Source: Spirogloea muscicola (Eukaryota; Streptophyta; Zygnematophyceae; Spirogloeales; Spirogloeaceae). Taken from it: a DNA stretch of 41,519 bases. Location of the stretch: the NCBI GenBank assembly GCA_009602725.1, contig WELB01000060.1, forward strand, positions 675,871 to 717,389, given 5' to 3'. Below the pieces are notes generated by a model. It saw only the letters and a list, made by a program, of their open reading frames with translations. It did not search any database and was not told the DNA's origin. Every line of letters begins with the position of its first letter. The first letter of the stretch is position 1. A program made the position numbers and the translations under genes. Shown here piece after piece: positions 83 through 22,800 of the stretch.

Positions 83-3000
83 ATGCCCTTCGCCAAGCTC
101 GATGACTCGCCCATGTTCCGCAAGCAGGTCTCGCCCCGCCCCACTGATCGCCGCTCGCGGCGCCGCCGCCGCCGCCGCCCTGGCCGCCCGGGCCTCTGCC
201 AGCCTCTTGTGGCTTTGAGTCCTGCGCGAGCAAGCCGGACGGCCCTTGCTGACGCCGGGCTCGCCCGGTGATCCCGGCCACGATGCGGCCCACCACCGGT
301 GCCCCGCACCTGCCAGGCTTTGCCTGCGCCGCTGTTCCTCCTGCTGGCTCGTGGTCACGGGGGGCCTCGACCATGGCCGCCATTGACGCTCGCCGCACTG
401 GGTGCCCGCGTGTGTCCTGCAGCTGCAGGCCTTGGAGGAGACCGCCGAGACCCTGCGCGACCGCACGCAGCGTCTCCACAAGAGCTGCCGCAGATACACG
501 TCCGTAGCACCCCCTGGACCCTGTCCAGCAAGCCCCGCAGATCCCAGCAACTTTAATGCTTGCCGGCTGGCACCGTCGACGGCACAGCACACTTGACGGC
601 ACGACATGAGTCGCCTTAGCCGAGCTCTTCCTGCCCGCAGAGATGGCCTTGGGGAGGCTTGCGAGGGCGACGTCGTGTTCGCCAGTGCGCTGGAGGCGTT
701 TGGAGACGGCCACGACGACCCCATCAGTGTGGCAGTGGGAGGTGCGACTCCGCCAGCCTTGGCAACCGCCGGCTCTGGCAGCTTAGCCCCGGCCCGCGGG
801 GTCCATTCGAGGCCCTCGTTGCCGCTGCATGCACCACACCCACTATGGCGCAGCAACTGTCAGACGGCCAAGGCAGTGCCTACTCATTCCAGGCCCACTG
901 CCACTGGAGACGCCCTTCAGGTTGTCCCTACCTGGCGGCACCCAGAAAGGCCTGTCAGACCACGAGTAGCTGGTGGCAGCGTGGCTGTCGCGGAAGCGCC
1001 TCGGCGTCTGAAATCCCACGTTAACATTCCCGCAGGCATGCTTTCGACAGAGGCCGCTGCTGCTGCTGAAGCGCCCCCTGACGCTGCGCCGCCGCTTGCT
1101 GCGCAGGTCCCGTGATGACCAAGTTCACAATCGCGCTGCGGGAGATTGGCAGCTACAAGGAGGTCCTTCGATCGCAGGTCGGTGGCCCCCAGCGTCTCCC
1201 TCCTCTTCAAGCAAGTCCTGCTGTAGGTCTCGTTGCAAGCTCGGGGAGTCCGTGGGTGCCGCTGGCGCTGCTCAGAGTGTCCTAGCGACGGACGCGACAG
1301 CAGTTTGAAAGTGCAGAAGTCGTGCGGCGCGGCGGCGCTCCGCCCCTCCTGTCCGCTGCCGCAGATGGAGCACATGCTGGTGGATCGTCTGACGGGCTTT
1401 GTCAGGGTAGACCTGCAGGACGTGAAGGTGCGCCCGCGCTTAACCCCTGCTCTCACATGGCTCCTCCTTCCTTGCCGCCGTCTCACAGGTGGAGCACCTG
1501 CTCAGTGACCCGATGGCCGCCTTTAAGGACATTGACCTCCTGAGTGCCAAGGTTTGCCCTGCCTCTGGTGTCGCGGAGGTGCACCCGCTCCGCGTTCCTT
1601 GCGGAGGGCGGTGCTGCAAGCTGGCGAGTGACAGGTGTTGCCAGCAGCGGGGTCCAGGAGAGTCAGGGTCTAGAGCCCTGTGCTGTCCGGGGTCGTGATG
1701 TCCGTATGGAGCTGCTACTTCTGTATCAGCACTGCTACTCACGAGCCTTTGGCCCTGTGGAATGCTGCCTGGGCACAGGAAGTCCGCAAGCGCTTTGACA
1801 AGGCGAGCGTCCAGTATGACCAGGTTCGTGCAGCCTGACGGGCAACCCTCACCAGTCGAGATTGCGAAGGTTTACCTGTAGGTAGGAGGTTGTGAAGAGA
1901 AGGCCTTCTGAGCACTTGGTGATCACCGCTTACCTTGGGCGTGCTAGTTGCATCAGCAGCCTGAGGCGCTCCCGCCTTTGTCAAGCAGATTCGCGAGAGG
2001 TACCTGTCCCTGAAGAAGGACACGAAGGCCGACACTCTGGCAGAGGTTGAGGAGGTCGGTGACCCTGCTGAAGCTTCAGTAGCCCAGCAGAACACCATGT
2101 ACAGCTCTGATCTGCTCTTTCGAGTAGGTGACAGTCTGTGCCCTTGGGATGTGCCCTCAACTCAACGAGCCTTGCTGGGCTGACCACATTAGCATGTACC
2201 TGAGCAGGACTTGAGAACGGCAAGGTCACACTTCGAGCAGTGCCGCTTCAACCTCGTAAGCGACCTCTTCCCTCCTGCTTTCAAATGACCACAGCCGAGC
2301 TGTCCACTGTGAGTCGGTGGTCACAGCAAATCTAAACCTACCCTGACTTTACTGCTCACCTATGACACATCTCGCAATCGAAGTTGCAGTTCCTGCACGT
2401 TCTCTGGTCAGAGTGGCGATCCCTTGTCTTATCTCTCAGAATGTGCTCAGGCAAACTCGACTATGCAGTCAAGACTTACATACAGATTTAGCTTAAGGAT
2501 CTGACAACTGTTATGCTACCCACCCCTTCATTGAGAACGTACTGTGCTACCCACTCCTTTTTCGACCCACCCACTTCCCTTTCCAACTTGAGCACAGGAG
2601 ACAATTGAGTGGTGTACATCCATTTGCCATCACACTGAGGGGCACTGAGTGGCTTACTAGTGCAGGTTACGGCCCTGTCAAATATTGAGGGGAAGAAGAA
2701 ATTTGAGTTTCTGGAGGCCGTCAGCGGCTCCATGGATGCTCATCTCCGTTACTTCAAGCAGGCCTGTCTAGATTCTCAGCCCGTTTACCCTTCCTCTTGA
2801 CAAAGATTGGCTTTGACCTTGGTTCAGGTAGTCATGGCTCACAGACTATCACTCTTGATTTCCGACTTACCGGCTTGCTGATGCGTGCTGGGTTGGCAGG
2901 GCTATGAGCTGCTGCACTCGATGGAACCATACATCCACCAGGTTCTGACTTATGCACAACAGTCACGCGAGCGGGCCAACATAGAGCAGGCGGCGCTCGC

Positions 3001-6000
3001 AGACCGCATGCAGGAGTTCCGGCGGCAGATGGAGAGGGACTCTGCTGCTGCCGCGGCAGCGGACTTGGCCTCTACTCCCTTCACTGGTGACGGGCTGCAG
3101 ATGGGCAAGTCCTCACACCGTGCGATTGAGGCTGTCATGGCCGCCACGCCTGATGGGAAGGTAAGCCCTTCAACCACCCAGCCTTATTGGATGCCATCTT
3201 GTCGCATGCCGTCCCATTATCCAGTACTCTCTGCTTATTGCAGCAGGAAGTGCATCTACATCAGCAGCATTTGCCGTCTGCTAGCTCAGAGGTCCAGCAC
3301 TTGTCATGATGCCTTGCCACAGCAGTATAAGCTTCCACTTTGGGTTGGGGCATTTCATGTCATACCCAAGCTGCTCAGCAGTTGGTAGTGAGGTTGAATC
3401 TGTAAAGTCATAGCCCTTTCATCATGAATGTGGTACTTTGGGTGTGGGCTCCCTGTGAAACAGGTGCAGACAATAAAGCAGGGGTACTTGCTGAAACGGT
3501 CCTCGTCACTCCGTGGAGATTGGAAGCGCCGCTTCTTTGTGCTGGACTCACGCGGGATGCTCTACTACTACCGCAAGCAGTGGGGAAAGCCAACCGTAAG
3601 ACTTGCAAGACATCCTAACTTGCCCATTTGGGTCTTGATCGTTGTTGCACAAGCACTGTTGCAGCCCGCACCTGGGAGCAACCTGGTGCTGGTTGACTCA
3701 ACAATCTCAATGCTGCAGGGCCGGCCCTGACTTGTATGCCACAGTGTAACTGCTTGCGAAGAGTCAGCTCTGACCAACTTGCGTTCCTTAAGCACATCCT
3801 CTAAGCCTGCACTACTGATTAGGAGGCCTCACCCCGCTTCCCCTTACAGAGTGCATGTCGTTTCACCATTAGGATGACAACACAGTAGCAAACAACACTG
3901 TGAACTTGCTGACGAGTACAATAAAGATGGACGCGGAGCAGTCGGACCTGCGCTTTTGCTTCCGAGTCGTCTCCCCAAACAAGTCGTACACCCTTCAGGT
4001 GCTGGGACGAGGGTCAATGGCATGGGTATATGATCAGAGCTTGTTGGCTGCTCATGTCCAAGCCAGTGCTGGCGTGCGCCCACACCCTGAATCTCACCAT
4101 CTTGCCCTGCAGGCTGAAAACAATGCTGATCGGCAAGACTGGGTCGACAACATCACGGGCGTCATTTCCTCCTTGCTTAATGCACAATCACCCGTGCCTG
4201 TAAGCGTCAAAGTGCCCCTAAGCTGCCCGCCATGATGCCGTGCTGGCAAGCTATGGTATGGGACTGCATCCCAGATCCGCCTTCTTTCAGAGCATCTGCC
4301 GGGCTGCACAGGGAGCCCACATGATGATCCCTGTTTGTCCCTTGCAGCGAATGCAACGAGGCCACCTGCGGTCCCCAAGTGATCTGTCTGAGGCTACCAC
4401 TCTTGACTCTCCCACAGCAGGTGGGGACTTTGCCAACCTTCTTTCTGGTACTCTGTCTGTCAGGTAAACAAGTTGCAGATATGTCTGACTCGTAGCTTGC
4501 TTTGTGCCACTATCAGAGGATGGAGGAAGAAGGGGCGAGGGCAGGTCTTTGAGGCAGAGCTTCCAGGAGAGACCGCTGGACGTTTTGAGGAAAGGGGAAG
4601 GCAATGATCGCTGTGCCGACTGCGGTGCCTTGGATCCCGATTGGGCTTCTCTCAACCTTGGCATCCTCATATGCATCGATTGCTCAGGCGTGCATCGCAA
4701 TCTTGGTGTGCACATCTCCAAGGTGAGCTTGTTGAGCTCACTGCATACAGCTCTTTGATCTACCGTCCTCTAGCCACCTGGATCCCGTGGATGTTTGTTG
4801 TTCGCATCCATGCATCTGGCAAGTCAGTCCCTGTGTATTTCTGCAGCAGCTCAGCAGATGAGGAGATTGACCTTCCATCCTCTCTTATGGAGCAAGAGGG
4901 CATCAAGTAGAGGCCCTTATGTCGGTGCTGGCCCATCCAGGTGAGGTCGACCACGCTGGACGTTAAGGTATGGGAGCCGGCAGTCCTGGCATACTTCACG
5001 GCAACCGGCAACACCTTCTTGAATGGCGTATGGGAGGAGCTCCTCCCACAGCAGCAGCGGAGACCTCAGCCAGGCTTCCTGCCCCCACGCCCAAGCAGGT
5101 CTGCTGGCTTGCCCTCTTGAGGCCTCTGATGGCCTTGAGCTTCCACATTGCCATTTGCCTGCTAATGTTGATGAATACAGGACTGCTGACGATGAAGCTT
5201 TGAGCAATTTGGTGCAGGGCTGACAAGGTAGATGAGGGTGCCTGCAGGGACAATGCAGCAGTGTCAGCAGGTGCATCAAAGCCCAATCCCAGTGACTCAC
5301 TGCAGGTCAAGGAGAAATTTATCCAAGCAAAGGTGATGCTCCGTAGTGACTCTTAGGAAGTTGTTGCAGATTCGCAGCATTGACGAGCACAGCTGCTAGG
5401 TGCTGAACGTGCTTCATAGAGGGCACTGCTTCGACGATACCAAGCAAATGTTGACAAAGTGCTATGGACGTGGATCTGGTGGTGCCAGTATGTGGAGAGA
5501 CGATTCATTCGCCAGAGTGGGGCAGAGTTAGGAGATGAGGAAGTTGCATGCCAAATGTGGGATGCTGTGAAGGAGGCGGACAAGCGGAAGGCCCTGTGTC
5601 TAGTGGTGCAGGCACAGGCTGACCCTAACACTACCTTCGAGCAGGCAAGTACTGCCTGGTTGCAGTGGGTCTGATTACGTACCTCAGGTGCTTCAGCCAA
5701 GTGTCAGCACCGATGGAAATATGACTTTGCAGTTGACATGAGGGCCTTCTATTTACCAAACGGCAGACCCTTTACCAGGCACACGGGCGTACAGGAGAGG
5801 ACTCGAGTCCATCAGGTGGAGATGAGCTGGAGCTCAAGGGCTGCACGTTGCTGCACGCAGCATGTCGGCTTGGGGACTCCGCTATGGTCGAGCTGCTACT
5901 GCAGTTCGGAGCTGCGGCCGGTGCTCGGGATGCCATGGGCAGGACCCCCCTACATCACGCAGTCCTTTGCTCGCATAACAACATCGCGAAAATGCTCCTC

Positions 6001-20279: not shown

Positions 20280-20605
20280 CTCGCGAAGAAAAAGCTCGCC
20301 CATAGAAGAGAGGGACTGGCAGAAGCCAGCCAATAAAAGAATGGACAAAATCCAAAGAGCTACAGGAGAAGCACTCAGTAACCTCTGCTAAGCAGCCGCA
20401 GGTCGGAGAGGCTAGGCTCGTTGAAGTGGGTCCCCTGGCCAGAGCCAGAGGCAGCAGCGAGGGCTCTGCCGGCACGAAGGTGCAACGCCCGGGCCATAGA
20501 CCTCTGCAGCGAGACGGCCAGGCGCATTCGATACACTTGCGCCAGCGACCCGACTGCAGGGAAGTCGACCGGCTCCCCATGGAAGCGACGGGCGATGGTG
20601 TGGCG
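20280..20605 (-). pseudogene. Retrotransposon C-terminal tail with type A hairpin
   Basis: Minus strand from 20605: VDFPAVGSLAQVYRMRLAV, SLQRSMARALHLRAGRALA, ending SLSDLRLLSRGY with TGA at 20375-20377. Then the 3' UTR and hairpin at 20290-20345. Almost the same sequence as 25750-25945 and 27860-28060, so these are relatively recent relatives. A GC-rich stretch at 20606-20815 continues upstream and is unassigned. Confidence 0.75.
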
Positions 20606-21605: not shown

Positions 21606-21990
21606 TTCGGATTTGAAGTGGATGGTCGGGACTGGGGAGGTGGTGCTGTCAGGGATACATAAATCCCTCAGGCTTGCAGGCGACTGGCCCAAGCTCAGGG
21701 CACAGGATCCTCATGTCAGCCCGGAAGTGCTGCACATCAAGCACATGCGCGGCCTCACCTCCCAGAACGATACCTGTCGCACAATCAAGACAGACCATCG
21801 GACAGGGGACCCTGATGAGCGGCTTGTGCCAGATCTTAGCATGCTCGGGTATACTCGGCTTCCGAGGCCCATCATTAAGTGTAAGGCCATGGAGATCATC
21901 TTTTGCATCTCAAGTCGAGCACGTCCAGTCCTGGATCTTGTAGGGAAGGCTCAAGATAGGCGGCAAATTGGGTGATGAGGTCAGCTTGGT
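21606..21990 (+). pseudogene. GT92 3' exon duplicate (copy beta)
   Basis: Open reading KWMVGTGEVVLSGIHKSL..., GDWPKLRAQDPHVSPEV, HIKHMRG, GDPDERLVPDLSMLGYTRLP. It matches 18373-18649 but keeps Lys where copy gamma has TAG. It lacks everything upstream, so it cannot be a gene alone. Copy alpha (12665-13345) stops 232 bp, in gamma coordinates, before beta begins. Confidence 0.75.
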
Positions 21991-22800
21991 GCTTGGTAAC
22001 GTCTCAAAATGGCATGATGAAGGCCTGACTGCCAAACAGAAAGTCAGTGCGACAGGGCCTGGCAGGTAGAAGGAAGGTGGGACAGAGGGAATAGAGGGAC
22101 GTCTCTGAGGAGGGGCGCAGGCGCGACAGAAGGAAAGGAAGAATGGAGCTCTTGGAGATTACAATGGGCAAGGCGTTCAGGAGGTAAGGGCCCTTAAAGC
22201 CGAAATGGACGTGGAGCGTAGCTCCCGTGAAGTCAAACTCATCTCATAGTGCATGCTGAGCTGCTACAGATGAGAAGCGCAGCCTCCTCAGATGTGGATG
22301 ATGTAAGCCGACCTGCTCAGTAACCATGGGTCTGTACATAGACATCGCCAAGTGATGCCGAGATACTTAACAACAAACTCCAAGCCATGATACCACCAAC
22401 TGGAGCACACCCGGCTTATTGGTGCATGGCTGGAGCTGAGCTTGCTGTCATCAATCTGACACGCGACAACGCGAGCCCATCTCAGCCGAAAGCACATCCT
22501 CACGTTCTGCACAATCTCCAACAAAGTATAAACCCGAGGACATAGGCAACCAGAAGTGTTGATTGCGCTAATAGGAGGTGGCCACAGCGGGGGTAGTCGT
22601 AAGTAGTGCTGCAACTCTCTTTCTTTCGCTGCCACCGCCCCTGTCGGCGGCTGCCTGGCTTCCAAGTGCAGGCACAGAGCGTGGACGTGGAGGAGGGCCG
22701 GCCCGGTGGCGGAGCCGCGCACGGGGAGCCACTGCCCCGGGGCTACACGAGCCGCGCTCCCTGGCTCCCCTGGCCCTTCTGGCCCTTCTTCGTGCAGGCC
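21606..22800 (+). repeat. Right copy of the 1.2-kb direct duplication
   Basis: Partner of 18373-19570. It includes the GT92 3' exon, flank, and the minus-strand retrotransposon tail at 22290-22800 (ends GTAACCATGG... and GCGGGGGTAGTCG on the plus strand). Confidence 0.8.

Follow-up and report, generated by a model that had tools for sequence, protein, structure and literature searches.

Much is known about homologous mutually exclusive exons in animals, whereas reports of them from algae and plants are less frequent. Plant AGD1-4 belong to the ACAP/AGD-type ArfGAPs, which carry a BAR domain, a PH domain, an ArfGAP domain and ankyrin repeats in this order. ACAP1 and the ACAP-A/B proteins of Dictyostelium are of this type as well, and the gene described here shares the order. 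No duplicated BAR exon was found for ArfGAPs of this type in the literature searched at abstract level, and the openly licensed literature searched, mostly at the level of abstracts, contained no report of a mutually exclusive pair in a BAR-domain ArfGAP. For Arabidopsis, the consulted part of a proteome study counts 11 mutually exclusive events among 2,442 (PMC13136898).

Exons 4a and 4b of vertebrate OGDH (PMC7969005) resemble the exon pair of this study in that tandem exons are separated by a short intron and the branch points are located near the upstream donor. According to the excerpts of that work used here, the donor and the branch points are 25-41 nt apart there, and the threshold is near 50. 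For human exon clusters, distances below 50 were regarded as a potential cause of steric interference, which applied to 57 of them (9%), as stated in the part of the source consulted (PMC5740500). However, OGDH is an enzyme subunit, its branch points were mapped by experiment and the exclusive choice is enforced, whereas the argument for the ArfGAP pair is built on sequence geometry. A second comparison comes from the green alga Volvox carteri, where exons 4 and 5 of cyn23 (PMC4378016) are also homologous and of equal length (106 nt each), and RT-PCR yielded a product of the expected size for each variant. In contrast to the pair described here, cyn23 encodes a cyclophilin, its variants differ at 13 residues, the exon length of 106 nt is not divisible by three and no spacer argument appears in the consulted sections of its description. 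Within the literature consulted, cyn23 was the one algal case of homologous exons backed by RT-PCR.

The window, which is the whole stretch of DNA analysed, comprises 41,519 nucleotides of the Spirogloea muscicola genome (contig WELB01000060.1, here C60). Near its start we read the following gene features, some of which are compared with a second copy of the gene on contig C5.

83..127, plus strand: exon 1 with the start codon at 83, read from the translation and the BAR_3 match; 44 of 45 nt the same in the C5 copy
423-499 and 641-741, plus strand: exons 2 and 3, as read in the gene model
1107..1177, plus strand: exon 4, which ends in phase 0 and whose donor must choose 5a or 5b; 68 of 71 nt the same in the C5 copy
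1365..1427, plus strand: exon 5a, 63 nt, phase 0, residues 99-119 of the protein model; CAG before, GTGCGC after
1428..1488, plus strand: spacer between 5a and 5b, 61 nt; 3' end of the exon 4-to-5b intron if 5b is used
1489..1551, plus strand: exon 5b, 63 nt, phase 0, likewise residues 99-119, with a proline at position 8; CAG before, GTTTGC after
1779..1823, plus strand: exon 6, downstream neighbour of the pair; 45 of 45 nt the same in the C5 copy
1989-2054, 2208-2255, 2666-2761 and 2900-3160, plus strand: exons 7-10, remaining BAR domain and linker
3464-3595, 3873-3998 and 4113-4199, plus strand: exons 11-13, PH domain (PF00169, 68.1 bits with the exons joined)
4546..5099, plus strand: ArfGAP region, two exon pieces joined by eye with approximate outer limits (PF01412, 110.7 bits; genome match C60:680446-680598)
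5821..6000, plus strand: ankyrin repeats in a single open stretch (PF00023, 49.9 bits)

It can be seen that the domains follow in the order BAR (PF16746 BAR_3, 155.0 bits when 5a is included), PH, ArfGAP and ankyrin, and as judged from its sequence the gene has the architecture of an ACAP/AGD-type ArfGAP. All exons beyond 4199, and with them the way in which exon 13 connects to those for ArfGAP and ankyrin, were read by eye. Apart from the spacer, the introns of this gene through exon 14 measure 114-410 nt. The intron at 2762-2899 is of the GC-AG type (donor GCCTGT), and this feature is kept in the C5 copy. Searches with a 48-residue and a 178-residue query yielded no relatives in viral contigs, and the 178-residue query found none in bacterial or archaeal genome contigs.

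The limits of both exons, their lengths, their phase and their AG and GT flanks had been given in the original prediction and were right to the base, as was the 61-nt intron placed between them at 1428-1488. When the two exons were compared with each other, identity was found at 8 of 21 amino acid positions and at 35 of 63 nucleotides. The prediction had already counted eight shared residues, and this similarity goes far beyond chance: the BLOSUM62 score was 42, which was not reached by any of 200,000 shuffles of 5b, and eight or more identities to 5a occurred in two of these shuffles. The two strands of the window together contain 170 open segments of 63 nt with AG ahead and GT behind; among these, 5b was the top partner of 5a (self apart), with the runner-up scoring 10. 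It was again the top partner among all 47,904 open 63-nt frames on both window strands; here the runner-up scored 21. No other open 63-nt frame of the window exceeds this value against 5a, and a third exon of this type was thus not found there. Thus, 5a and 5b are adjoining exons of equal length and phase that are homologous to each other, as mutually exclusive exons are. On these and the following sequence data we consider it quite probable that they arose long ago by tandem duplication of one exon and have been retained as mutually exclusive alternatives. In that case they would probably be a further case of a kind already known, homologous mutually exclusive exons.

The gene recurs on the minus strand of contig C5. 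Identity is 86.8% in one main aligned block and 88.6% in the other, and the similarity extends beyond the gene as far as the end of the compared stretch. The C5 copy is probably a homeologous or alternative-haplotype locus. Farther away, positions 21,615-22,000 of the window match C5:15890-16277 at 91%, but this segment also matches contig C112, with 95% identity, and further loci with 87%. When the genome (153 Mb, 471 contigs) was searched with a 258-nt DNA query, the exon pair was found on C60 and C5, with no third copy.

Comparison of the two gene copies indicated that both exons are conserved as coding sequence, as seen in two copies within one genome. Exon 5b is the same at all 63 positions and 5a at 61 of 63, with both changes silent; the spacer is the same at 56 of 61 positions and all four splice dinucleotides of 5a and 5b are retained. 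Among the 15 exons counted, just 5b (0 of 63 changed) and exon 6 (0 of 45) are unchanged. In the 13 exons besides 5b (406 codons, 5a included), 44 silent and eight replacement codons differ between the copies (dN 0.009, dS 0.179). For 5a versus 5b, we obtained a dN of 0.55 and a dS of 1.46, rough values since they were calculated from 21 codons. The exon thus seems to have been duplicated long before the gene copies diverged, and with a dS of about 1.5 the pair might be old enough to be widespread among related algae.

These data also bear on the possibility that 5b is a dead duplicate, which is never or hardly spliced in, and that 5a is the sole working exon. The better fit of 5a to the BAR_3 profile (8 bits) and to ACAP1 (5 bits) speaks for this scenario. 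However, all 63 nucleotides of 5b were kept between the copies while the introns differ at 379 of 2,908 aligned sites (13%), and none of 2,117 overlapping 63-nt intron windows is identical between them. Moreover, 5b has retained its splice sites and a branch-point candidate, and despite the long separation it still encodes a BAR-like sequence. We regard a dead 5b as the least probable of the explanations weighed here.

To compare the two versions with the BAR fold, we scored protein models containing 5a, 5b, both exons or neither of them. With 5a alone, the BAR_3 profile matched in one stretch (residues 6-235) with 155.0 bits, and with 5b alone it also matched in one stretch, with 147.1 bits. 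With both exons the score was 144.3 bits and with neither 119.1 bits, and in each of these cases the match was broken into two stretches. The PF03114 BAR profile gave 64.5 bits for 5a, 57.5 for 5b, 51.8 for both and 37.7 for neither. Thus, by sequence profile, exactly one version fits the folded element. Among solved structures, APPL1 (2q12) and then ACAP1 were closest to the 5a version. APPL1 scored 67.2 bits with 5a and 67.4 bits with 5b but 53.0 bits, in two stretches, with both exons, and ACAP1 scored 42.5 bits with 5a (E 5.3e-10), 37.4 bits with 5b (E 1.9e-8) and 27.5 bits with both. ACAP1 is the nearest ArfGAP structure, and the fit of 5b to it is poorer than that of 5a.

Exons 5a and 5b each align to residues 107-127 of the APPL1 chain. 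APPL1, which is the best solved match to both versions, shares Thr10, Phe12, Asp16 and Leu17 with 5a, and it has Phe12, Lys13, Asp16 and Leu17 in common with 5b together with the proline at position 8. It differs from the gene studied here in that the chains matched contain a single version of the segment, and APPL1 is not an ArfGAP. From this alignment, the swapped segment might form part of the membrane-curvature surface. In the BAR domains of amphiphysin and endophilin, the kink in helix 2 is usually mediated by a proline, according to the part of the source consulted (PMC3527510). By analogy, it is reasonable to assume that the proline of 5b bends the BAR helix.

The original prediction had named inclusion of both exons as an alternative. 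If both were always included, the BAR helix would be 21 residues longer. All junctions would keep the frame in this case, and other organisms do have introns as short as about 60 nt. However, the BAR_3 and APPL1 alignments split when both exons are present, and 5a and 5b align to identical APPL1 residues. In addition, none of 115 introns estimated elsewhere in the genome is shorter than 83 nt, and no adenine is located 5 to 30 nt upstream of the acceptor end of 5b. Profile and intron geometry together disfavour joint inclusion, to which we assign a very small probability.

The intron sizes of the genome were estimated from neighbouring exon matches of two gene families, Cpn60 and HSP70. For Cpn60, the 87 of 113 candidates that were scored gave 118 matches, and for HSP70 the 73 of 140 scored gave 106. 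Of these, 88 Cpn60 and 95 HSP70 matches (183 in total, taken without a scripted check for inserts) were used for intron pairing, and 41 were left out because of inserts, in-frame stops or the lack of a usable neighbour. This procedure yielded 56 Cpn60 introns, the shortest of 83 nt, and 59 HSP70 introns, the shortest of 92 nt, and the 61-nt spacer is shorter than every one of these 115. Many of the sampled introns are copies of one another and come from two multi-copy families, so that the number of independent introns is below 115. Twelve of the 41 omitted matches had an excess of at least eight codons, which amounted to 84-210 nt in 11 of them and to 24 nt in one. The latter (C347:18554-18781) has three stops inside and was read as a misplaced alignment and not as an intron; apart from it, the omitted matches concealed no short intron. 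A GC-AG intron (GCAAGT) also fits two copies of a Cpn60-family gene (L018, L019).

For exact placement, 20 stretches were fetched and 13 short introns of 83-105 nt were placed, about seven of which are distinct and the rest copies; in the other seven stretches (L023, L025-L027, L030-L032) no intron could be placed convincingly, and they were left aside. The 13 introns were chosen by a crude splice score and by eye for protein continuity (in L028 the second-ranked candidate was taken), and shorter, lower-ranked GT-AG combinations were also present in the output. The branch-point consensus motif is yUnAy. It was found in 10 of the 13 introns, 14-70 nt from the acceptor, and was absent in three. 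In these 10 introns, the candidate nearest to the acceptor is located 60-71 nt from the donor, and one of them (L022) has an extra candidate at 42 nt from the donor.

In the spacer between 5a and 5b, adenines are confined to the first 30 nt (at most 29, 0-based, from the 5a donor) and to the last four nucleotides. Inspection of this region yielded the following candidates.

1452..1456, plus strand: best 5b branch-point candidate, CTCAC, with the A at 1455, 27 nt to the end of 5a and 33 nt to the start of 5b; matches yUnAy and is kept in the C5 copy
1443 (position of the A), plus strand: second 5b branch-point candidate TTAAC

The spacer of the window copy contains no AG ahead of the 5b acceptor. 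In both gene copies the predicted branch point lies 27 nt (0-based) from the 5a donor, which is below the limit of about 50 nt for a barrier to joint inclusion. Since the spacer is shorter than all sampled introns and the usable adenines lie within 30 nt of the 5a donor, joining of 5a to 5b should be sterically hindered. The original prediction had suspected that the intron might be too short to splice, and the sampled minimum of 83 nt and the positions of the adenines lend support to this suspicion. Its central proposal, that 5a and 5b are candidate mutually exclusive exons, is likewise favoured by the conservation in the C5 copy, the BAR_3 fit of one version at a time and the spacer geometry.

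Since 63 nt is a multiple of three in both exons, the frame is kept with 5a, with 5b, with both or with neither, and nothing at the level of translation or frame forces exclusion. This leaves room for an ordinary cassette exon or a loose choice, in which 5a-only, 5b-only, both and neither all occur and exclusivity is not enforced. Preservation of the frame in every combination would fit such a choice, and the short-spacer argument is based on a limited intron sample. On the other hand, the match to the BAR profile breaks up when both exons or none are present, and with about 28 nt between them the donor and the predicted branch point are closer together than the limit of about 50 nt reported for animals. 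We consider a loose choice unlikely, albeit somewhat less so than constant inclusion of both exons.

If 5a and 5b form a mutually exclusive pair, the donor of exon 4 would join either 5a or 5b, and the chosen exon would then join exon 6. The 5b branch point, only about 28 nt into the 61-nt spacer, would be so near the 5a donor that the two could not be engaged at once. The choice would exchange the Arg-containing 5a for 5b, in which position 8 is a proline as in APPL1. Such a swap may change the bend or the contacts of the helix, but not its length. Going one step further, we tentatively propose that, in an algal ACAP/AGD-type ArfGAP, a sterically enforced switch brings in or takes out a proline that bends the BAR helix, so that one gene might provide two membrane-curvature settings. 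As far as the literature searched shows, no such switch has been described for a BAR-domain ArfGAP before, but we hold this more specific scenario to be possible rather than probable.

Upstream of 5a the situation is different. In the 120 nt before this exon (1245-1364 of the window), no yUnAy motif was found in either copy, and the window copy has no adenine 3 to 46 nt upstream of 5a. The C5 copy has an adenine there, inside an extra CAG that ends 29 nt upstream of 5a. An acceptor lacking the motif suggests that 5a may need help or may use an unusual branch point, and as judged from sequence the acceptor of 5b appears more conventional. Hence, splicing could use 5b by default and 5a under regulation, even though the BAR_3 and ACAP1 scores are better for 5a. 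The intron before 5a in the C5 copy contains two copies of a 78-nt unit (L013 6500-6656), and intron 4 of the window copy is about 80 nt shorter than that of the C5 copy.

If the choice is exclusive, the cell would alter one helix of a membrane-shaping protein by exon choice. The locus adds an algal case for which the sequence itself predicts exclusivity, as the spacer is shorter than any sampled intron of the genome. Moreover, its two versions would give BAR domains that are identical outside a stretch of 21 residues, one of them with the proline in the helix, and with these the relation between helix bending and membrane curvature could be tested. The distance from donor to branch point may serve as a criterion for finding further pairs in algal genomes.

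Several additional observations were made on the genome. The Cpn60 and HSP70 genes are present in about two to four closely similar copies on several contigs, which suggests several haplotypes or subgenomes, although the ArfGAP exon pair occurs in just two places. At 20285-20605 the window carries a repeat of about 320 nt, and with 40 of 5,967 candidates scored we counted at least some three dozen near-full copies on many contigs (94-99% identity). One of these copies is located elsewhere in the window itself (C60:703703-704017, 95%).
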